Part shown: positions 4,795 through 61,162 of the stretch, one piece after another
Layout of the letters: each line of letters opens with the position of its first letter
Position numbering within the stretch: position 1 is the first letter of the stretch
From: an uncultured Nostoc sp.
Lineage (GTDB): Bacteria; Cyanobacteriota; Cyanobacteriia; Cyanobacteriales; Nostocaceae
Direction of reading: 5' to 3'
Length of the DNA: 64,000 bases
NCBI RefSeq assembly: GCF_937863485.1
Contig: NZ_CALMFY010000151.1
Coordinates: 1 to 64,000 of the forward strand
The notes under the pieces: model-generated
Database searches by the model: none
What the model was told of the DNA's origin: nothing
What the model saw: only the letters and a program-made list of their open reading frames with translations
Made by a program: the position numbers and the translations under genes

Positions 4795-6747
4795 CTATGG
4801 CAGTTGCCAAATCTTGATAGTTTTATCCTTACCGCCACTAACCAAAGTTTTGCCATCTGCACTGAAAGCGATCGCATAAACTTCGGCTGAATGTCCATTA
4901 AAGGTGTGTATTGCCTCTCCCGTGTTCAGTTTCCAGACTTTTACAGTCTTGTCATCACTACCACTAGCAATATATTCCCCATTTGGGCTGAAGGCGATCG
5001 CATTTACATCAGCTAAATACCCCGGAATAGTGCGTATTTCCATGCCTGTGTCCAGTTTCCACACTTTGATGGTTTTGTCATCGCTAGCACTAGCTAACAT
5101 CTGACCATCTTGGCTAATTGCAACGTCATTCACATCGCCTAAATGCCCCATAATGGTATTTATTTCCTTACCAGTATTCAAATTCCAGACTTTAATAGTT
5201 TTATCCTTACTGCCACTGACAATAGTCTTACCATCCGGGCTGATGGCAACGGAAAAAACATCCCCTTAATGCCCCGTAATAGTACTTATTTCCTTACCAG
5301 TATTCAAATTCCAGACTTTGATGGTTTTGTCATAACTACCACTGACAATAGTCTCACCATCCGGGCTGATAGCAACAGAATTAACGAAGTCTTTATGACC
5401 ATTCAAAGTGCGGCTTTCCTTACCAGTATTTAAATTCCAGACTTTGATAGTTTTATCCTTGCTGCCACTGACAACAGTCTTTCCATCTGGGCTGATGGCA
5501 ACAGCATAAACCCAGTCTGAATGCCCGGTAAGAGTACGAATTTCATGCCCACTTTCGATGTTCCAAATTTTGACAGTTTTGTCATCGCTGCCACTGGCAA
5601 GGTTATTAGTTAAAGAGTTAGAGTTCATAGCCAGGGAATTAACTTCACCTAAATGCCCAGTTAGAGTTGTGATAGACGCTAAGCTTCGTAAATATATATA
5701 TCCCCCTAACCCCAATAGCACAACAGCACCCCCCACCAGCAGTTTACTTTTCCACTGGATTTTCGGCGGTGCAACAGTGGCGAGTAAAGCAGATGGCGGT
5801 GCAACAGTGGCGAGTAAAGCAGATGGGGGTCTATACTGATCCATTGATAGCGGCTGTAAGCTTGAATCCAAATCTAGGAGGACTTCATCCGCTGACTGGT
5901 AACGCTCCTCGATATTTTTTTGTAACAGCTTACCTAGTACATTTTTTATGGATGCAGATATTGGCAACCTCACGTGTTGCTGCCAGTGTGTTACCCAGCC
6001 GTAGCCCTCTTCAGCCCAGAGTTCAGAGGGGTTAATTCTTGTTAACAGATGAAAGCAAGTCACACCCAAACTGAATAAATCGCTAGCCGCATAAGCGCGA
6101 CGCAGTTTCATTTGTTCAATTGGCGCATAGCCATAGGAACCAATACTCGTGCCTGTATTATCCAAAGAATTTGTAGTTAACTGCTTGGCAACGCCAAAAT
6201 CAATCAGCACTAACTTGCAATCGCTTTGGCGACGGATAATATTTTCTGGCTTAATGTCGCGGTGAATTACCTGATGTTCGTGGACAAACTTCAAAACAGG
6301 TAATAATTCACTCAAAACTTCCCAAATCTTGTCTTCACTGAAAATTCCTTGTTGTCGTAACTCCTGCCCTAAAGTTTGCCCTTTGATCAACTGCTGCACC
6401 AAATATAAATAGTTATCCTGCTCAAAATAAGCATACAAAGTGGGAATTTGAGGATGTTCTCCTAGCTGTTGCAGACGCCGTGCTTCTTCTTGAAATAATT
6501 CCGTTGCCTTATGCAAAGCGGTACTTCCTTGGACTTGGGGTGCTAGCTGCTTAACTACACAATGCTCTTTGAGCTTGTCTTCATCCTCTGCCAAAAAAGT
6601 TCTGCCAAATCCGCCGCCTCCCAGTGGTTGAATAATGTGGTAGCGGTTTCGTAGCCGTGGTAGTAATCTTGTCCCGCAACTTTGACAAAAATTTATGCCA
6701 TTAGGGTTGAGGGGCTTCATGCAACTGAGATTGAGGCAGTAGCTCAT
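4795..6747 (-). pseudogene. Ser/Thr kinase-WD40 gene interrupted by in-frame TAA
   Basis: One continuous frame of about 650 codons broken only by TAA at 5266-5268. N-terminus: a Cys4 zinc ribbon (C4, C9, C21, C24), then a PknB-type kinase domain (about 34-300) with glycine loop 'GGGGFGRT', 'HRDIKPEN' and 'DFGVAK'. A proline/alanine linker, one membrane helix and seven WD40 repeats follow. Membrane receptor-like Ser/Thr kinases with this layout are typical of Nostoc. The stop falls in the 'GH-x-GDV' start of blade 4, where the next blade reads GHLGDV (codon TTA), so a single T-to-A change explains it. The upstream part (493 residues) keeps kinase and three blades; the downstream part (4795-5265) keeps the other four, which cannot close a propeller alone. 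It may be a pseudogene, a truncated but active kinase, a readthrough site or a sequencing error. Confidence 0.8.
5765..5824 (-). repeat. 30-bp perfect tandem duplication inside kinase linker
   Basis: Two identical 30-bp units (5765-5794 and 5795-5824) encode a doubled SALLATVAPP in the linker between the kinase domain and the membrane helix. Being a multiple of three it keeps the frame. Confidence 0.9.
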
Positions 6748-33700: not shown

Positions 33701-34290
33701 AAGTATCTACTTAATGAACTCCAACGTCTGGAAAAATCTGATCCCACCCTCCAGAGAAAACTCAATTTTCAGCAAGTTAAGGCGATTGACTTACTCAGCT
33801 ACCAAGTTTGCTATCTTAGGATTTACCCAAGCTTTGCGCCAAGAGCTATAGCAGTCCTATCTGATTTCGTTCAAATTCGCGGTGTCCAGATCCCCGACTT
33901 TGTAAAAGTTGTCGGGGATCTAACTTTTCACGAATGATTTAGGATTACTATAGCTGAACACAATATCTGAGGATTGCATTACTGTTTTCCCTGACAGACA
34001 CAGACATGGTGCGCGACTTAAAATTATTTCGCTGGGTGATCCCCATGACTTCCCAGCAAGTGGCTAAAGCACTCGTCACTGCAATACAAAATAATTCAGT
34101 AGAAATTTTAGTCGGATGGGATCATTTAGCCGTATGGTGTCAACGCTTTGCTCCTTGGTTGCTAGAGCTAATTTTACGAATAGCAATTCCGCCAGCACCA
34201 AGAAAACAACAGCCGAGTCAAAAACTAGTTTTTTGACAAGAATCCATCGTTTCGGTGATTTGTTCTTGTCAAGAACATGATTTTTTGCGT
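33701..34290 (+). pseudogene. Chimeric pseudogene: hydrolase fragment fused to SDR fragment
   Basis: Bases 33701-33786 match the DUF1400 hydrolase gene at 26728-26809 (residues KYLLNELQRL...LNFQQ). From about 33788 the sequence matches the SDR gene from its YSATK motif (31221) to near its stop. The junction shares GGCGA with both parents. The SDR part is split by a TA-flanked element (33849-33950), carries a TGA in place of an Arg codon and a one-base deletion ahead of a surviving open stretch (34006-34236). The product would be non-functional. The many silent differences show that the parents of the fragments were diverged paralogues, not recent copies of the two intact genes. Confidence 0.85.
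33849..33950. mobile_element. 102-bp TA-type miniature element, complete
   Basis: Ends TAGCAGTCCTA and (inverted) TAGTAATCCTA, flanked by TA at 33847-33848 and 33951-33952. An internal hairpin of AGATCCCCGACTT lies in the middle. Removing it with one TA restores 'gag cta gct gaa cac' (ELAEH), matching ELAEY of the intact SDR, so the boundaries are well supported. TA duplication is typical of IS630/Tc1-type transposition. Confidence 0.85.
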
Positions 34291-35769: not shown

Positions 35770-36226
35770 TTACCCATTTGAGATGGTAGGTTTATTTCCG
35801 CCGTAACGTACTAGTCCGAATAGCAATAATAAAAGCAGAAACACTTGTGGTTTAAGCAGTTTGCAATTACTTATGTAATTGATGCAGGATTTTGCCATCA
35901 AGGGGTAAGCTTTCAGGCGGCGTTTGCGGACTCGTGCTTCACTTCTGCCTGGGCCTAGAACACGATCTGGAACAACCTTGTGAACAATAACTTTTAGTAA
36001 AGCGCGATAATTTTGGTAACATTGTTAGGACTTACGCAAAACTACATGCGCTCTAGGGCAATTCATGAGTTGCCCTAAGAAGAAAATCTTTCTTTTCGGC
36101 TATTGTTTACGTAAGTCCTGATTGTGTTAAATTTACTGCTAAAAAGTTAGGAATCAATTCTACACATTGCTGCCAATAACTGGCACAGACGCCCAGACGC
36201 TCTTGGCGACTTGTCTCTCCAGACAT
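35770..36226 (-). pseudogene. Probable IS4-like transposase C-terminal remnant
   Basis: If the 95-bp miniature element and one ATTGT copy are removed, a frame runs without a stop from ATG 36226 to TAA 35770. It contains 'GRSEARVRKRRLKAYPLM', which resembles the basic C-terminal tail of IS4-type transposases. The catalytic domain is absent. The uninterrupted frame after excision also confirms the element boundaries. The transposase assignment rests on the tail motif alone. Confidence 0.45.
36026..36120. mobile_element. 95-bp miniature element with 5-bp target duplication
   Basis: Ends TAGGACTTACG and CGTAAGTCCTG are inverted repeats. ATTGT occurs directly on both sides (36021-36025 and 36121-36125). 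Same terminus as the large element at 48463-54814 and the element at 61044-61162. Confidence 0.85.
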
Positions 36227-43995: not shown

Positions 43996-45669
43996 GTGTT
44001 AGCCGAAGAGCCATCGACAGACGAACTCCCGACCATAGAATTTCCCTCACGAGGGAAACTCAAAGCCAGTTCTTGGCGCATCCATCAAAAAATTGGCTAT
44101 GGGTACTTTGTAGCTATCGGAATTGGCTTTTTTGGCTCACTGACTGGGTTAGTGATTGCCAACTACTACCGAGGAAGAGAAGTCAGGCAATTCAATCAAG
44201 CCTATGAACAAGGACAACTACTGAGTAATTATAAAGATGCAGTAGTAGGGGCGCAATTGCATAGCTCTAACCTAGTTGCTGTATTGGAAAATTCACAACA
44301 GCTGCAAAGCAAAAAAGCCGATTTTCTGAAAAATGTTGAAAAAGCCAAGCAACTAGAGTCAAAAATTGCCGGATTCATCGATAGTAAACCTAAAAGACTA
44401 GCAGCAACAAGTTCGATTTTACAGACGTTATTGCTGGATTACAAGACTAATTTAAAAGCTTACGTTGACCAAATAGAGGTCGTCTTAAAGGAAGTTGACT
44501 CCCAGCAAGTGCAGCCTCAGCAGATTTCCTCTGCCCGATCGCAGTTATTGACAATTATGCGTGGTGAAACAGCCATCCGGCTAGACCAGCTTTCTCAAAG
44601 CTTGACTAACATCCTGCAAACTGCTGAAGATCAAGAGCAAGAAAGGCAAAAAGCTGTTGAAGAGGCAAAAGTAGTTGAGCGATTCATCGTGATTATGAGT
44701 ATGCTGGTTTCGGTGGCGATCGCAGCCATTGTAGCATGGCGTACTAGTCGGGCGATCGCTGAACCAGTTATCACTGTCACCCAAGTAGCGGAGCAAGTTG
44801 CAAGAAAATCTAATTTCGATTTGCGAGCTCCAGTCACCACTGAAGATGAAATTGGCCTACTCGCCAAATCTCTAAATCGTCTGATTGAGCGAGTATCTGA
44901 GCGCACAAAAGAACTACAACAAGCTAAAGAATTAGCCGAAGCTGCTAGCAAAGCAAAAAGCGTATTTTTGGCCAATGTCAGCCACGAATTACGCACGCCA
45001 TTAAATGCAGTCATTGGTTTAAGCCAACTTCTAGAAGACGACGCCACCGATCTTGGTTTATCGGGAGACTTTATCACAGACTTAGAAACAATTAACTCTG
45101 CTGGTAAGCATCTACTGCACTTAATTAACGAAATCCTCGACTTGTCAAAAATTGAAGCGGGGAAAATGACCCTCTATCCAGAGACATTTGAGATTGCAAC
45201 CCTGATTCATAACGTTGTCCTCACAGTCAAACCGACTATAGAAAAAAATGCCAATGTCTTAGAAGTACATATTGATCAGCAACTTGGCATCATGTACGCC
45301 GATCAAACCAGGATGCGGCAGGTGTTGTTAAACTTACTAAGTAACGCCGGCAAGTTCACTACAAACGGCAAGGTGATGCTAGCAGTCAACAGAGAAAAGG
45401 ATGAATTCCGACTGGAGGCTCCTTTGGGCATCATTACTTTCACCGTTACCGACACAGGCATAGGTATGTCTCACCGTCAACAGCAGCAGTTATTTCAACC
45501 TTTTACACAAGGAGATACCTCGACTACGAAAAAGTATGGAGGTACGGGACTGGGGTTGGCAATTAGCCGCCACTTTTGCCAGATGATGGGTGGTGAGATT
45601 ATTGTCAAAAGTGAACCGGGAGTTGGCTCTACTTTCACTATTCGTCTACCAATGACTGTGCAGGATTGA
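43996..45669 (+). CDS. Membrane sensor histidine kinase (HAMP-HisKA-HATPase)
   Basis: A 557-residue hybrid-less sensor kinase. Two transmembrane helices (about 36-58 and 234-252) bracket a helical extracytoplasmic sensor. HAMP follows (about 253-305), then HisKA with the phospho-His H330 in '[14 protein letters not shown]', and an intact HATPase domain (N-box '[10 protein letters not shown]', 'DTGIGM', '[11 protein letters not shown]'). The start is a GTG at 43996; the frame upstream is open to 43906 without a standard start. No response regulator is nearby, so the partner is unknown. Confidence 0.88.
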
Positions 45670-45698
45670 AGGAGTTATTGAAAACCTGAAACCTAGAT

Positions 45699-45770
45699 TC
45701 CCCCTTTTTAAGGGGGGAACCCTAAACAGCCAACTTTTATAAGGGGGTTGGGGGATCTCTTGTGCGTAAG
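45699..45770. repeat. CCCCCTTTTT/AAGGGGG repeat and lone GCGTAAGTCCT end
   Basis: A CCCCCTTTTTAAGGGGGG palindrome with a second AAGGGGGTTGGGGGATC arm, followed by a GCGTAAGTCCT word (about 45761) resembling one terminus of the 5-bp-duplication family. No partner end is visible. Confidence 0.5.
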
Positions 45771-45807
45771 TCCTAAATTGTTTAATTGTTGAGAATCCTC
45801 TCCTAAA

Positions 45808-48269: not shown

Positions 48270-48457
48270 TTACAACAGTTTGGTAAACCCCGCTTGCTTA
48301 AAATGACGGTCAGATGTTAAGGCTTGAGTAATCCCTTCCTGTGTCATCACCGCAAAGCTAATACAGTCAGTTAGCCCCCAATCTTTATCAGGACGCTGGC
48401 TGTATAACATCCAACCTTCATCTAGCAATTTTTGGTCAAAAGGGATGATTTGCACAC
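48270..48457 (-). pseudogene. PIN-domain toxin, C-terminal half
   Basis: Encodes 'VQIIPFDQKLLDEGW' and 'KDWGLTDCISFAVM' plus 'LTSDRHF', the second half of a VapC-type PIN nuclease, with two of its acidic residues. The first half lies 6.4 kb away at 54820-55045. The two halves join in frame (RLLKS-VQIIPF) if the element 48463-54814 and one 5-bp copy are removed. Inactive as it stands. Confidence 0.85.
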
Positions 48458-48462
48458 TTTCA

Positions 48463-48628
48463 GGACTTACGCATCGTACATAAGTACTACACGCAATTTG
48501 GGTATAAAGCCATGTTTAGTAGCCAGCGATCGCTTTCTATGCCAATAAATTAAAGTTATGCGAAGTGCCTGAAACGAGCAAATATCATAATGCACATTAT
48601 GGTTAATTTGTACAGTGCATAAGTCCTA
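48463..48628 (+). repeat. Left terminal inverted repeat of the 6.35-kb unit
   Basis: Outer end CAGGACTTACGCATCG; inner end (inverted) TAGGACTTATGCACTG. A 110-bp stretch (48629-48738) without counterpart on the right separates it from the 56-bp inner repeat. Confidence 0.85.
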
Positions 48629-48796
48629 TGATTGACAAAAGGCAGTTTATTTTAACCTCTCACCGATGGATTTTTTCGTGCCAAATTTTGATTGCCCCAA
48701 CATCATTTATGGGCAAGTTGGTAAATCAATAAAACACGCTCTGCAATATTTCTTTACAACGTGTCCTGTTTTGCGCGTATCCCGGCTGAACCCCTT

Positions 48797-48964
48797 TAAG
48801 AGGATGTTTGAAAAGTCCTCTTGTCGATATCAAAAGTTCTAATTATCTCTAAATCCCCCTTAAAAAGCGGAACTTTGATTCCGGTTCCCCCCTTTTTAAG
48901 TGGGGTATAGGAAATATAAAAGTGCCTAAAGTTATAGCAAAACACTTTTCAAACAACCTCTAAA
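48797..48964. mobile_element. Nested miniature element (AGAGG.TGTTTGAAAAGT ends)
   Basis: Inverted ends AGAGGATGTTTGAAAAGT (left) and ACTTTTCAAACAACCTCT (right) enclose about 165 bp including a CCCCCTT palindrome. One end of the same family occurs alone at 21696-21715. It sits inside the larger unit, ahead of the kinase gene. Confidence 0.6.
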
Positions 48965-49001
48965 TACTCTACTGAGAGAAATAAATCAGTAGAGTATTTT
49001 T
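48962..49001 (+). terminator. Strong hairpin with T-run upstream of the kinase gene
   Basis: Perfect 14-bp stem AAATACTCTACTGA and complement, 10-base loop, then TTTTTA. It lies about 90 bases ahead of the kinase start and may insulate or attenuate it. Confidence 0.65.
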
Positions 49002-49089
49002 ATAGGAGCCTGATGTCTTGACTTGAATTTTGGGAATTATTATAGGAACCGCCAAAATCCATTGTAAAACAACATTCAGGCAAGTAATA

Positions 49090-52000
49090 GTGTCTAAATT
49101 AATTGTTCGTATCCCAGAGTACAGTATTACCAGTTTAATTTATGAAGCTACTGCCACAGTAATTTATCGAGCATACTGCAAAGTTAACGGAGACTCAGTT
49201 GTGATCAAACTGCTCAAAGCAGAGTATCCTACTGTCAAAGAGATTGCTCAGATCAAGCACGAATACGAAATTATCCAAAATCTGAATATTGCAGGTGTAA
49301 TCAAAACCCAAAAATTAATCAATTGCGACAATGGGTATAGTAATGGTCTAGCAATGGTTTTAGAAGATTTTGGCGGAGAATCCTTAAAAGATCAGATATC
49401 TACTACAGGGTTTGAACTCAGAAAATTTCTCAACATCGCCGTTCAAATTACTGAAACATTAGGAGAGTTGCATAGTCACCACATTATTCATAAGGATATT
49501 AAACCTGAAAACATTCTTTATAACCCCAATAGCGAAAAAATCAAACTGATTGACTTCAGCATTGCTTCGCTGCTGTCAAAAGAAAGCCCAGAAATCACTA
49601 GCCTCAACCTCCTAGAAGGAACGCTGGCTTATATGTCGCCAGAGCAAACTGGACGCATCAATCGAACCTTAGATTATCGTACAGATTTTTACTCATTAGG
49701 CGTGAGTTTTTACGAAATGCTAACGGGTCGGCTCCCGTTCCAGAATGTTCAAGATCCAATGGAGTTGGTGCATTGTCACATTGCGAAAATTCCAATGGCT
49801 CCTGAGGAGATTAATCCTAATATACCACTGGGAATCTGTGCGATCGCCATGAAACTCCTGAGCAAAAATGCTGAAGATCGCTACCAAAGTGCTTACGGGT
49901 TAAAGGCTGACCTAGAGAAAGCAATGCTTCAACTGGAAACAAAAGGAAGGATTGACCTTTTTAGCTTAGGTGAGCAGGATTTTTCGCATCAATTTCAAAT
50001 AGCTCAAAAACTTTATGGTCGGGAGGTAGAAGTGGCAGCTCTTATGGCTGCCTTCGAGAAAGTTAGCCTTGGTTCGAGTGAAGTTGTGTTAGTAGGAGGA
50101 TACTCAGGTATCGGCAAATCCTCACTGGTGAACGAAGTTCATAAACCTATTGTGCGCCAACGAGGTTACTTCATCGGTGGCAAATTTGACCAACTCAAGC
50201 GAGATATTCCTTATGCTTCTTTGATTCAAGCATTTCGAGAATTGATGCGACAACTGTTAACTGAAACCCAAGTCAGAGTTGAGGTTTGGAAAAATAAATT
50301 GCTACAAGCATTGGGAGTTAACGGCCAGGTCATTATTGATGTTATCCCAGAAGTAGAACTGATTATCGGGCAGCAAGCGCCTGTACCGCAGTTGGGTGTT
50401 ACTGAGTCTCAAAACCGTTTTAATCGGGTATTTAAGCAATTTATTCATGCCTTTACTGCTGTAGATCATCCCTTAGTACTGTTTTTAGATGACCTGCAAT
50501 GGGCAGATGCTGCCTCTTTGAAGCTGGTCGAGAATTTGATGACTGACCTAGAAACCCAGTATTTATTGATGATTGGGGCTTACCGAGATAACGAAGTTAG
50601 TCCTACCCATCCGTTGATATTAATGCTAGAGGCAATTCGAGTATCTGGGGCAACGGTTGAAGAACTGCTCTTGAAGCCATTAGCAGCACCTCATATTACT
50701 CAACTGCTTACTGACACATTCAATTGCGAATCATCTCAGGCAGAACCTTTAGCTGATTTGCTACTTCAAAAAAGCCAAGGTAATCCCTTTTTCTTGACTC
50801 AGTTATTAAAAGTATTGCATCAAGATAATCTCTTAACATTTAATTACGGTTTAGGTTTATGGCAGTGGGATATTAACAAAATTGAGTCACAAGCCATTAC
50901 CGATAATGTAGTCGATTTAATGGTGAATAAAATTCAGAGACTGTCAGAATCAACCCAGCAAGTTTTACAATTAGCTGCTTGTGTTGGTAATCGTTTTAAT
51001 TTAGAAATTCTAGCAGTAGTAAACGAAAAATCTGCATCAGCAACAGCAGCTGATTTATGGTCAGCTTTACAGGAGGGATTAATTCTTCCCTTGAGCGATA
51101 CTTATAAAATTCCTCAGTTGTTGAATCAGTCGGAATTGGCAATATACTGTGATAATGCGGTACAAATTGACTATAAGTTCTTGCACGATCGCGTTCAGCA
51201 AGCTGCTTATTCTTTAATTCCAATCGGTCAGCAACAACAAGTACACCTGAAGGTTGGAAAGTTACTATTACATAATACTGAAAAAACTCAGTTAGATGAG
51301 CATCTTTTCGAGATTGTCAACCATCTAAATGCTGGAGAATCATTGATTATTGAACCAGCAGAAAGATATGAAATGGCGGAATTAAATCTGAAATTAGGTC
51401 AACGAGCAAAATCATCCTCGGCGTTTGTAACTGCCCTGAAATTGTTGAAAATCGGGATAAATTATTTAAATAAAAATAGTTGGCAAGATAAATATTTACT
51501 GACATTAAATTTATATTTACAAGTTGGAGAAGCAGAATTTTTAAATGGAAGATACGAACAAGCTTTGCTGATTTTTGAGCAGACTTTCAGCCAGGTTAAA
51601 AATACTCTTGATATGTGTCGAGTAAATGAATATCGGATTATGTGTTATCGCATGGAGAATGACTTAAACTCCGCTTATGAAATTGGGTTAAACACCTTGA
51701 AGATTTTAGGTTTTGAGTTTACAGCTTATCCTGATGATGCATATCTGTTGGAAAAACTTAATCAAACAAAGAAAGTTATTGGCGATCGCTCAACTTTTAG
51801 TCTGGCAGAACTACCACAAATGCAAGACGAAGAAAAGTTAATGGCTCAACGCATCTTAAAAGAAGTTTGGCCTATTGCTTACTTTTTAGGATCTAAAGCG
51901 TTGCACGTTACATCTATGAATTTGACTCAACTTTCGGTTCAGTATGGCAACTCACCGATTTCAGTATTTGGCTATATGCTGTATTCCTTCAACTTAGTAT

Positions 52001-54543
52001 TTCAATATGGTGAGGTAGATTCAGGTTATGAGTTTGGGCAGCTTTCTCTCCAACTCCATGAAATTATGAGAACGAAGGAATTAGAAGCGAATATTTTGAA
52101 TATGTGGGGAGGTTTAATCTGTCATTACAAAGACCATATTAGCCTGGCAAAACCTTATTTGTTAAAGGGATTTAATAGCGGTTTAGAAACAGGTTCTTAC
52201 CAATGGTCTGGTTATTGTTCAGTTAATTTTTTATGGCAATCTTTATTTGGGAATGAATCTTTAGAAAAAACCGCAGAAGTAGCCGAAGATTTTATTCCTA
52301 CCCTCCGCAAAATTGACAAAAATATGTTGAACTACCATCTGCTGGCTATGGAAGCGATCGCTAACCTAACTAAGCCAGCAGGCAAGATTGACGAGCTTGT
52401 TGGAACTTGGGCAGATGAACAGCAAGTGCTAGAGTTTGCGTTGGCATCTTCTGATATGTTGAGTGCATTTGTAGTTTACATCTATAAACTTGCGCTTTGT
52501 AACTGGTATGGAGAGTATACCAAAGCTGTTGAGTATGCAGAGAATGCAGAAAAATTTGTTGGGGGATCACGAGGAATTTTTATTAATCCTGTTTTCTACT
52601 TTCACCAAAGTATTGCTTTGGCAAGAGCTTATGGTGAGGTAGATACAACAACTCAAGCCATTTATCTGCATAAACTAAATGTCAACCTGGAAAAATTCCA
52701 GCAATGGGCAATGCACTGCCCAACCAATTATCAACACAAGTTCCTGCTGATTCAAGCTGAAATTGCCAGGATTTGTCAACAAGATTATCAGGCAATGGAG
52801 TTGTATGACAAGGCGATCGTCTCTGCTGCCGAAAACGGTTATTTACAAAATGAAGCCTTAGCAAACGAACTCGCATTTCGATTTTACTTGGCCAAGGACA
52901 GAAAAAACCTTGCCAAAGTTTATCTTACAGAAGCCCGCTATCGCTATCTGAAGTGGGAAGCGATGGGTAAAGTCCAACAACTAGAGGAACAATATTCTCA
53001 ATTTTTTACAGATACAGCAGCAGAAACAACTCTTCGGGGCACTGCTACAAACTCAATCAGAGATACTTCTGAAGCTAAAACCCAAATTCTAGATTTAAGC
53101 ACAGCGATTAAAGCATCACAAGCACTGTCGAGTGAGATGGAGCTAAATCGGCTGTTGGAGAAGATGATGACAATCGCGATCGAGAATGCTGGTGCCCAAA
53201 TGGGTTATCTACTTGTTAAACGGGAGAACCAATGGCTGATTGAAGCTGAGGGAAACGTTGATCGAGACCAAGTGACAGTGCAATCATCCAGCCTGGTTCA
53301 AGTAAAGCATAAACTACCAGTTTTGCTGATTAATTATGTTGAAAGAACAAAAGAAAATTTGGTTTTAGACGATGCTAGCCACACAGAGCGTTTTGCCAGT
53401 GACAACTATATTATTGCCAATCAACCCAAATCAGTTTTGTGTTTGCCTTTCGCTCATCAGGGTAAGCTAACCGGAGTTCTTTACTTGGAAAATAACCTTA
53501 CCACCGGAGCCTTTACCGCAGAGCGACTAGAGGTACTGAACTTATTGACTTCACAAGTTTCTATCTCAATAGAAAATGCTCGGCTCTACACAAATTTGCA
53601 CATATACTCCCAAGAGTTAGAGATTTCGGAAACACAAGCGCGTGAGAAAGCAAAGGAGCTAGAGCAGACGCTCGCTGAATTGAAGCTCACCCAGTCCCAG
53701 ATGGTGCAAAGCGAAAAAATGTCTAGCCTGGGGCAGTTGGTAGCAGGCGTTGCTCACGAAATCAATAACCCAGTCAGCTTTATCTACGGCAACCTTACTT
53801 ATGTCAATAATTATATCAAAGACTTGATGAGTGTAATACAACTTTATCAGCAGCAAAACCAGAATTTACCACCTAAAGTTCAGAATGAAATAGATGCAGT
53901 TGACTTAGATTTTTTGATGGAAGACTTACCTAAGCTGTTGGCTTCAATGAAAGTGGGAACTGATCGCATTCGCCAAATTGTATTATCTTTACGAAACTTT
54001 TCCCGCCTAGACGAAGCTGAAGTCAAAGCCGTTGATATCCATGAGGGCATTGATAGCACCTTAATGATTTTGCAAAGTCGGCTTAAACCCCAACCAGACT
54101 CTCCCGGAATTCAGGTAATACAGGAGTACGGCAACCTGCCACCCGTAGAGTGCTACCCTGGGCAACTGAATCAGGTATTTATGAACCTGATCGCTAATTC
54201 AATTGACTCTTTGGAAGAATTTAACAAACATCGGACTGATGCAGAGAGAATACGTCGCCCAGGTATTATTACAATTCGTACTACTGTTAAGGGTGATCTT
54301 GTTGTCATTCGTATTGCTGACAACGGTTCTGGGATCTCTGAAAATATCCGGCAGCAACTCTTCACCCCCTTTTTTACTACAAAACCTGTCGGTAAAGGAA
54401 CTGGTTTAGGGCTATCTATTAGTTACCAGATTGTAACTAAAAAGCATCAAGGACAGTTAGAATGTGTATCGGTTTTAGGACAAGGGGCTGAATTTATTAT
54501 CTCTATCCCCCTTCAGGGAAGACTAAAAGCAAGAAGTGTCTAA
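49090..54543 (+). CDS. Multidomain Ser/Thr kinase-ATPase-GAF-histidine kinase (HstK type)
   Basis: About 1,817 residues from GTG 49090 (the frame opens at TTG 49030). Order: Ser/Thr kinase domain (about 8-280; 'VVIKLL', 'HKDIKPEN' with D136, 'DFSIAS'); AAA-type ATPase of the COG3899 group (Walker A 'GGYSGIGKSS', K343; Walker B 'LVLFLDDLQWAD'); long helical TPR-like region (about 700-1,300); GAF domain (about 1,345-1,505); histidine kinase with H1556 in 'GVAHEINNP' and intact N, G1 and G2 boxes ('NLIANSIDS', 'DNGSGIS', 'GKGTGLGLSIS'). Anabaena HstK proteins share this plan and join Ser/Thr and two-component signalling. No transmembrane helix; cytosolic. It is the sole passenger of the 6.35-kb unit and nearly fills it. 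Confidence 0.92.
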   Translation: MSKLIVRIPEYSITSLIYEATATVIYRAYCKVNGDSVVIKLLKAEYPTVKEIAQIKHEYEIIQNLNIAGVIKTQKLINCDNGYSNGLAMVLEDFGGESLKDQISTTGFELRKFLNIAVQITETLGELHSHHIIHKDIKPENILYNPNSEKIKLIDFSIASLLSKESPEITSLNLLEGTLAYMSPEQTGRINRTLDYRTDFYSLGVSFYEMLTGRLPFQNVQDPMELVHCHIAKIPMAPEEINPNIPLGICAIAMKLLSKNAEDRYQSAYGLKADLEKAMLQLETKGRIDLFSLGEQDFSHQFQIAQKLYGREVEVAALMAAFEKVSLGSSEVVLVGGYSGIGKSSLVNEVHKPIVRQRGYFIGGKFDQLKRDIPYASLIQAFRELMRQLLTETQVRVEVWKNKLLQALGVNGQVIIDVIPEVELIIGQQAPVPQLGVTESQNRFNRVFKQFIHAFTAVDHPLVLFLDDLQWADAASLKLVENLMTDLETQYLLMIGAYRDNEVSPTHPLILMLEAIRVSGATVEELLLKPLAAPHITQLLTDTFNCESSQAEPLADLLLQKSQGNPFFLTQLLKVLHQDNLLTFNYGLGLWQWDINKIESQAITDNVVDLMVNKIQRLSESTQQVLQLAACVGNRFNLEILAVVNEKSASATAADLWSALQEGLILPLSDTYKIPQLLNQSELAIYCDNAVQIDYKFLHDRVQQAAYSLIPIGQQQQVHLKVGKLLLHNTEKTQLDEHLFEIVNHLNAGESLIIEPAERYEMAELNLKLGQRAKSSSAFVTALKLLKIGINYLNKNSWQDKYLLTLNLYLQVGEAEFLNGRYEQALLIFEQTFSQVKNTLDMCRVNEYRIMCYRMENDLNSAYEIGLNTLKILGFEFTAYPDDAYLLEKLNQTKKVIGDRSTFSLAELPQMQDEEKLMAQRILKEVWPIAYFLGSKALHVTSMNLTQLSVQYGNSPISVFGYMLYSFNLVFQYGEVDSGYEFGQLSLQLHEIMRTKELEANILNMWGGLICHYKDHISLAKPYLLKGFNSGLETGSYQWSGYCSVNFLWQSLFGNESLEKTAEVAEDFIPTLRKIDKNMLNYHLLAMEAIANLTKPAGKIDELVGTWADEQQVLEFALASSDMLSAFVVYIYKLALCNWYGEYTKAVEYAENAEKFVGGSRGIFINPVFYFHQSIALARAYGEVDTTTQAIYLHKLNVNLEKFQQWAMHCPTNYQHKFLLIQAEIARICQQDYQAMELYDKAIVSAAENGYLQNEALANELAFRFYLAKDRKNLAKVYLTEARYRYLKWEAMGKVQQLEEQYSQFFTDTAAETTLRGTATNSIRDTSEAKTQILDLSTAIKASQALSSEMELNRLLEKMMTIAIENAGAQMGYLLVKRENQWLIEAEGNVDRDQVTVQSSSLVQVKHKLPVLLINYVERTKENLVLDDASHTERFASDNYIIANQPKSVLCLPFAHQGKLTGVLYLENNLTTGAFTAERLEVLNLLTSQVSISIENARLYTNLHIYSQELEISETQAREKAKELEQTLAELKLTQSQMVQSEKMSSLGQLVAGVAHEINNPVSFIYGNLTYVNNYIKDLMSVIQLYQQQNQNLPPKVQNEIDAVDLDFLMEDLPKLLASMKVGTDRIRQIVLSLRNFSRLDEAEVKAVDIHEGIDSTLMILQSRLKPQPDSPGIQVIQEYGNLPPVECYPGQLNQVFMNLIANSIDSLEEFNKHRTDAERIRRPGIITIRTTVKGDLVVIRIADNGSGISENIRQQLFTPFFTTKPVGKGTGLGLSISYQIVTKKHQGQLECVSVLGQGAEFIISIPLQGRLKARSV

Positions 54544-54646
54544 TCTTTACCGCCACTGATTGCAATTACAAATTACGAATTAGTAATTAGGGGTTCAGCC
54601 GGGATACGCGCAAAACAGGACACGTTGTAAAGAAATATTGCAGAGA

Positions 54647-54814
54647 TTGGATTTACGCACTATACAAATTAACCATAATGTGCCTTATAATATTTGATCG
54701 TTTCAGGCGCTTCGCATAACTTTAATTTATTGGCATAGAAAGCGATCGCTGGCTACTAAACATGGCTTTATACCCAAATTGCGTGTAGTACTTATGTACG
54801 ATGCGTAAGTCCTG
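54647..54814 (-). repeat. Right terminal inverted repeat of the 6.35-kb unit
   Basis: Inverted copy of 48463-48628. It abuts directly the 56-bp inner inverted repeat at 54590-54645. Confidence 0.85.
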
Positions 54815-54819
54815 ACTTT

Positions 54820-55045
54820 TTAAAAGTCGCAAACTGTTGATGAAAGCAACTGTCTGAATACGGCTAACTGGTGTACACAGAGCATCTGCAACCTCCAATA
54901 GTACAAACTCAGTTGTCACCAAAGGCGTTTCTAAGCGCAAAAGTCTATCCATTACCTCATTTGCCTGGTGATGAAGATTATCCCTAACATTAAGAAGGGC
55001 AATCTAGGCAGTTGTGTCTACAAAAACTTTCGTCAAGGTTATGAT
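54820..55045 (-). pseudogene. PIN-domain toxin, N-terminal half with nonsense codon
   Basis: Encodes 'VFVDTTA-stop-IALLN', 'TTEFVLLEVADAL' and 'INSLRLLKS'. TAG at 55004-55006 replaces the Trp (TGG) usual in 'VDTSAWIAL'. The frame overlaps the end of the antitoxin gene and would start at a non-ATG codon (TTG at 55036 or earlier). It is cut at 54820 by the 6.35-kb unit. The toxin is thus broken twice. The catalytic Asp and Glu of this half are kept. Confidence 0.8.
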
Positions 55046-55290
55046 TCTCGCTTTGGCATTCCATAGAGATAATGGTCATGCTGGTGTGTCAAATCGCCAA
55101 TATCTGTATCAACTGCACAGTTTTTAATCAACTGCCTTAGTTTATCCCAATCTGAGTCTTCTGGCGTTACTGACTGAGGTGTGTGGTTTTCTTCGACAAA
55201 CACGATTATAACTGACTGCCCCTCATGCCCTTCAATTGGTTCGTTAGGATGAACCACACCGTTTTGGAATGTGCCTTTGACTGACAGCAT
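55039..55290 (-). CDS. Antitoxin-like protein of the broken PIN pair
   Basis: An 83-residue acidic protein. The N-terminus 'MLSVKGTFQNGVVHPNEPIEGHEGQSVIIVF' is a small beta-rich module seen in short antitoxins of cyanobacterial VapBC-like pairs (DUF104-like). The rest is acidic and flexible, fitting a toxin-binding tail. Its stop overlaps the PIN reading frame, the usual antitoxin-toxin coupling. With the toxin inactivated it is an orphan; it may still neutralise related toxins. Confidence 0.75.
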   Translation of the reverse strand: MLSVKGTFQNGVVHPNEPIEGHEGQSVIIVFVEENHTPQSVTPEDSDWDKLRQLIKNCAVDTDIGDLTHQHDHYLYGMPKRES

Positions 55291-61043: not shown

Positions 61044-61162
61044 CAGGACTTACGCAAAATCATGATAAAACGAACCGCAAAGGACGCATAGACACGAAGT
61101 GGCTTCCCGCAGGGTAGGACACAAAGGAATAAGAGTTTCACAGAGTTCTTGCGTAAGTCCTG
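61044..61162. mobile_element. 119-bp miniature element with 5-bp target duplication
   Basis: Perfect inverted ends CAGGACTTACGCAA/TTGCGTAAGTCCTG. AGAAA repeats directly on both sides (61039-61043 and 61163-61167). Same family of ends as 36026-36120 and the 6.35-kb unit. Confidence 0.88.

Follow-up and report, generated by a model that had tools for sequence, protein, structure and literature searches.

A probable composite transposon bounded by IS701-type miniature elements carries a large kinase gene in an uncultured Nostoc

The window analysed here comprises 64,000 bp of contig NZ_CALMFY010000151.1 (positions 1 to 64,000) from an uncultured Nostoc sp., hereafter the source genome, and it contains a mobile unit of 6,354 bp (48461-54814) that splits a PIN-domain gene in two. 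The ends of the unit are formed by two copies of a 168-bp miniature inverted-repeat transposable element (MITE) in inverted orientation, with a single large kinase gene between them and a 5-bp target-site duplication, ACTTT, outside them. We interpret this arrangement as a MITE-bounded composite transposon that was mobilised in trans by a transposase of the IS701 type, and give this reading a probability of roughly 0.88. That the insertion took place as a single unit is very likely; the mobilisation in trans by an IS701-type transposase, which we infer, is likely.

The two MITE copies agree at 160 of 168 bases. Their outer 105 bp are identical and all eight mismatches fall within the inner 63 bp (p = 2.9e-4), showing that the inner MITE ends of the unit are decayed. 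At their inner ends, both arms also have changes at bases which the single copies found elsewhere have conserved. Anatomically, the whole unit corresponds to a single transposon whose ends are perfect over 105 bp. The same MITE stands twice around the cargo, the duplication lies at the outermost ends and no transposition gene is present inside, as in a MITE-bounded composite; the Tn5-like type of insertion sequence (IS) composite, in which at least one flanking copy carries a transposase, does not apply, the 168-bp arms being too short. An exact 5-bp flank match arises in 0.38% of random pairings of pooled ends, so that ACTTT is more than chance. A preliminary description of this DNA had already recognised inverted ends of the same sequence bounded by a direct ACTTT, and the borders prove exact at both sides. 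It placed the unit at 48463-54814, with the correct end and a start 2 bp too late, and it gave the inverted arms an agreement of about 159 of 166 bases, where the orientation holds and the figures are those above. The MITE also occurs alone, and one full-length single copy (L101:4344-4511) has its own duplication, ATTTC. The predicted DNA folding of the MITE is not unusual (z = -1.36).

The history of the site was examined by joining the flanks with a single ACTTT. As the preliminary description had noted, this restores an in-frame PIN protein, of 135 residues, which is 91-96% identical to full-length genes in five relatives. The joined protein was searched in the source genome and 58 relatives. 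Unoccupied sites, with ACTTT once at the junction and a full-length PIN gene, are present in G025, G011, G021, G017 and G031; the gene is continuous at this very place, as had been anticipated, and in all five genomes both flanks are collinear with those of the window, at 89-94%. The intact copy of G025 matches PF01850. The site is unoccupied in G028 too, as seen from one side and 28 bases. The PIN gene of G028 holds a separate 92-bp element, 19 bases from the site of the unit (L016, G028:C978, positions 1708-1799), which has the duplication CTGTT and the end motif of the unit; the contig stops just beyond it. G003 has lost the 5' part of the PIN gene together with the small gene upstream of it. 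The unit itself was found in none of the relatives with a comparable site, and the remaining relatives, with more distant PIN genes or none, are uninformative on the insertion. The 5' part of the PIN gene in the window also contains an in-frame stop, which the preliminary description did not mention. The genes of G025, G011, G021 and G017 are without a stop while that of G031 has one, and the gene was therefore damaged independently of the insertion.

The end motif of the unit, YAGGACTTACGCA, has 296 sites in the genome at no more than one mismatch, compared with 8 for the reversed control. The same genome has an autonomous element (G000:C94:3714-4958) of 1,245 bp with ends CAGGACTTACGCAACTGGCACA and the duplication TTTAT, and its open transposase of 349 residues matches the NCBIfam IS701 model (NF049921) with E = 4.5e-121. 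We found 30 loci with that transposase, and an exact 5-bp-duplicated end pair surrounds the match in seven of them, itself included. The IS701-family elements with 5-bp duplications are L112, L129, L132, L133, L143, L146 and L150; the transposases of L112 and L143 match NF049921, the other five elements being assigned by similarity only, and the transposase of L133 carries two stops. Their ends match the outer 13 bp of the MITE, and their duplications have the same length as that of the unit. Unlike the unit, these elements carry a transposase gene, and their ends diverge beyond base 13 (...GCATCGTACA or ...GCACTGTACA in the MITE versus ...GCAACTGGCACA or ...GCATTGACA in the elements). From its outer ends and its duplication length the MITE can be assigned, at the level of sequence, to an IS701-family type rather than to a specific parent.

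The kinase gene is the only cargo and the unit has no transposase gene, in agreement with the preliminary description. Inside the unit no other start-to-stop frame exceeds 76 residues, and a Pfam scan of the kinase frame found no transposase in it. The cargo protein has protein kinase, AAA ATPase, GAF, HisKA and HATPase domains; hybrids that join a kinase and a histidine kinase in this way are familiar from cyanobacteria (HstK type). Its frame is uninterrupted and shows purifying constraint, with 0.051 nonsynonymous (dN) and 0.307 synonymous (dS) substitutions per site against the orthologue of G025. The dS values against G025 are similar for the kinase (0.31), hisC (0.29) and part of a helicase (0.29).

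Between the terminal MITEs and the kinase lie remnants of other repeats (Table 1). A second MITE (MITE2), which is complete at 307 bp in L090:1307-1613, is present as two remnants, each with its outer end toward the kinase and its broken side pointing outward. The identical inner pair, given earlier as 56 bp, is indeed identical and measures 57 bp; it is the outer end of MITE2, separate from the mobile ends of the unit, a point that had not been made before. Such an orientation is expected if the terminal MITEs entered MITE2 copies flanking the kinase at the donor site, or sequence adjacent to them. We propose that at the donor a MITE2 copy stood to either side of the kinase gene, and that two 168-bp MITEs of the IS701 type would have come to flank it, inverted, within this repeat-bearing stretch, probably in the order given here. 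The outer parts of the MITE2 copies would have stayed behind at the donor site. An IS701-family transposase, presumably supplied in trans, could then have paired the two outward ends and moved everything between them, and the unit would have entered the PIN gene, perhaps by cut and paste, with duplication of ACTTT. Another pair of inverted MITE2 copies, with identical arms of 149 bp, surrounds two small genes in G004 (L091:3250-3566 and 5495-5682). The 10 bp beyond its arms are identical inverted repeats and no direct duplication was seen there, and the pair was not counted as a further unit.

Table 1. Features of the mobile unit and its insertion site, in window coordinates
Feature	Position	Strand	Remarks
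Target-site duplication ACTTT, left copy	48456..48460	.	present once in six relatives
Target-site duplication ACTTT, right copy	54815..54819	.	
Left MITE copy, 168 bp, outer end CAGGACTTACGCATCG	48461..48628	+	full-length single copies in relatives
Right MITE copy, 168 bp, inverted	54647..54814	-	same end outward as left copy
PIN-domain gene, 3' part	48270..48460	-	
PIN-domain gene, 5' part	54815..55036	-	includes in-frame stop 55004-55006
Small gene directly upstream of PIN gene	55039..55290	-	same order in G025
Cargo kinase, 1,817 residues, GTG start	49090..54543	+	dN/dS about 0.165 against G025 orthologue
Dispersed repeat, about 40 bp, between left MITE and MITE2 half	48629..48668	+	query 1-41 matches many places
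Half of MITE2, 127 bp, outer end toward kinase	48669..48795	+	
57-bp outer end of another MITE2 copy, toward kinase, adjoining right MITE	54589..54645	-	
Third small inverted-repeat element, approximate limits	48796..48964	+	inverted-repeat pair; related copies near some kinase orthologues

Orthologues of the kinase, 88-91% identical, are present in many Nostoc strains. Seven of the 14 named kinase loci compared have a common downstream neighbourhood, and the kinase stands beside hisC in L095-L097 and elsewhere at other loci; as the named loci and L095-L100 appear to overlap in part, these counts are not summed. The MITE of the unit is absent beside the orthologues L095-L100, L232-L247 and L287. 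Ends with the same motif occur near L233, L238, L244 and L247, and none of them pairs around the kinase. In the source genome, the hisC neighbourhood has other genes in that place and no end motif within 14 kb. The closest kinase is that of a metagenome-assembled genome of Rhizonema sp. NSF051 (L245; 97.2% over 3,048 bp, support 100/100), the compared Nostoc orthologues being about 90% identical. The downstream flank of the Rhizonema copy matches the unit as far as 54590, at most 2 bases from the border of MITE2, and then diverges. This match could denote horizontal transfer; alternatively, because the Rhizonema contig is only 3.8 kb long and Rhizonema lives in lichens, contamination of the bin is possible. 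The kinase may have come by relocation within the lineage, possibly from beside hisC, or else by horizontal gain.

It had also been suggested that units of this kind help to explain the abundance of such kinases in Nostoc. Among the 110 kinase matches in the source genome, we examined the neighbourhoods of the eight largest others (L224-L231), four of which reach a contig end and whose flanks extend over at most a few kb. None of these paralogues lies between inverted ends (two have a single lone end and six have none), and for this reason the suggestion is unsupported. The orthologues, in turn, stand at several places without the MITE. An expansion of the kinases mainly by such units does not gain support from this case.

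In order to find similar units, end pairs were screened in 812,733 bp of the source genome (contigs picked for length and listed ends, window included) at no more than two mismatches. Exact 5-bp duplications surround 17 of the 26 short pairs (<700 bp) and one of the 30 long pairs (0.7-15 kb), this one being the unit; two other long pairs have duplications with one mismatch. In 400 kb of G026 the corresponding numbers are two of three short pairs and none of three long pairs. When 324 sequences (2.71 Mb including overlaps), which came from earlier searches and are not a random sample, were pooled and screened, nine of 47 long pairs had exact duplications: the seven IS701-family elements and two units without a transposase. 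The second of these units (L093:1906-3435, the same as L094:1703-3232) has 1,530 bp, TAATA on both sides and a gene of 189 residues with a PEP-CTERM signal as cargo. On the right the arm is related to the MITE along its whole length (74%), on the left the similarity is confined to the outer 50 bases, and 45 of the 63 outer bases are shared by the two ends. Two different MITEs may therefore have formed this second unit as a composite; alternatively, it may be a longer, non-composite element. G033 and G025 have it at one and the same position. A search of 44 genomes (the source genome included, G026-G034 left out) gave no unoccupied site for it, and a near-identical flank is present only in the unit-bearing G025. 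The expectation of the preliminary description that other inverted pairs would carry different cargo between 5-bp duplications is borne out by this one example, whose arms are much less alike. In the plasmid collection, the unit as query gave three records with short matches and no unit, and the MITE alone gave one record.

Several of these results weigh against the composite transposon proposed above. Of the 30 loci with the IS701-family transposase, 23 lack an exact end pair, many of them being fragments. Two of the 14 ends of the seven elements have one mismatch to the outer 13 bp of the MITE, and no autonomous element among the seven has ends that match the MITE past 13 bp. The donor site was not found, as the flank of the Rhizonema copy has no counterpart in the source genome outside the unit. 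The unit is present in a single copy only, so that repeated movement is not supported by copies, and with one exact duplication in 30 long pairs such units are rare. Finally, the source genome is a draft of 250 contigs.

Three other histories can account for part of the evidence. The unit could have been built up stepwise, if the PIN gene first received a MITE or a cargo-less inverted pair, into which the kinase segment came later by another route. The remnants of three other repeats indicate that the interior was hit repeatedly, and in G028 a different element that shares the end motif inserted separately into the PIN gene. Nevertheless, we consider this course improbable: each junction has the same end of the MITE on its outside, an arrangement that one MITE alone could not produce (the preliminary description had argued likewise), a cargo-less pair at the site was seen in none of the relatives searched with the joined PIN protein, and an extra event would be needed to bring in a kinase with MITE2 ends on both sides. 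Even less credible is a decayed unit transposon that lost its own transposase and has the kinase segment in its place. The outer 13 bp and the duplication length shared with IS701-family elements would fit such an origin, but both arms are full MITEs, inner ends included, of a kind found singly in relatives, and neither the small size of the other frames nor the Pfam result for the kinase frame points to a former transposase. An assembly artefact, in which contigs were misjoined through the repeated MITEs, would be favoured by the draft state of the genome and by its many end-motif sites; a misjoin is not expected to set ACTTT exactly at both borders or to keep the PIN parts in register with those of the relatives, and we regard it as similarly far-fetched.

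Some known systems resemble the unit. In mobile insertion cassettes, passenger genes stand between a single pair of IS ends, without a transposase, whereas the unit has two complete MITEs. The ends of Tn3 elements, we presume, look different from those of the unit. The closest parallels are the TIME-COMP elements of Pseudomonas, which the pertinent part of the original paper describes as two Tn3-derived MITEs, inverted (TIME-COMP1) or direct (TIME-COMP2), around passenger genes, with transposition shown in the laboratory and AT-rich duplications of 5 bp (PMC4133298). Like the unit, they have a MITE pair around cargo without transposition genes and a 5-bp duplication, and TIME-COMP1 likewise interrupts a gene, in a natural plasmid; unlike it, as far as that part goes, they have 38-bp terminal repeats of the Tn3 family, are plasmid-borne and include resolvase or replication genes in their cargo (PMC4133298). 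A unit bounded by the integron mobilization unit (IMU) moved with the transposase of ISSod9, and units bounded by TIME244, IS101 or MITESen1 carry resistance genes, according to the relevant passages of a further paper (PMC13367494). In these passages, MITE pairs of the IMU type, inverted or direct, carry passengers and need a transposase in trans, as proposed for the unit, but they are Tn3-family MITEs and reside mainly on plasmids of Enterobacteriaceae (PMC13367494). The authors state there that, to their knowledge, MITE-bounded units other than those of the TIME type are unreported in Enterobacteriaceae (PMC13367494). Passages of two other papers mention a copy of MITEAba12 within a composite transposon (PMC6382973) and, in a review of prokaryotic MITEs, the inactivation of genes by MITEs in cyanobacteria (PMC10969869). 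A literature search among open-licence papers gave no composite of IS701-type MITEs and no cyanobacterial case.

The earlier remark that no element of this kind had been described does not stand, since TIME-COMPs and the integron mobilization unit were already on record. The kind is known, though seldom documented, and the IS701-type ends together with the cyanobacterial host make the unit, which is well preserved, a new variant. In the parts of the papers cited, the known MITE composites have Tn3-type ends, are mostly found on plasmids and often carry resistance genes. New here are a cyanobacterial genome, another transposase family, a cargo gene of 5.5 kb and, for comparison, the unoccupied sites. 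The case shows that miniature elements of a common sort are able to relocate a regulatory gene intact, and annotation based on transposases would miss such a unit. A wider idea, which we put forward tentatively and hold to be rather doubtful, is that IS701-type MITEs form a system by which genes are captured repeatedly in the chromosomes of cyanobacteria: genes between outward-facing copies would become mobile and regulatory genes would be relocated whole. If true, it would cover the transfer of the kinase, possibly from beside hisC, into the PIN gene and, elsewhere, the case of the PEP-CTERM gene.

Other copies of the end motif are present in the window. An element of 119 bp at 61044-61162 has an exact duplication of its own, AGAAA, and is related to the 92-bp element of G028. 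The pair formed by the ends at 54647 and 61162 matches at four of five duplication positions, which was judged to be chance. Further copies of the motif lie at 33817, 42114 and 44983-45775, and 36026-36120 is an element of 95 bp with the duplication ATTGT. A 365-bp element with these ends (L092:3981-4345) contains a tandem repeat in which VGSEYKS is read repeatedly.

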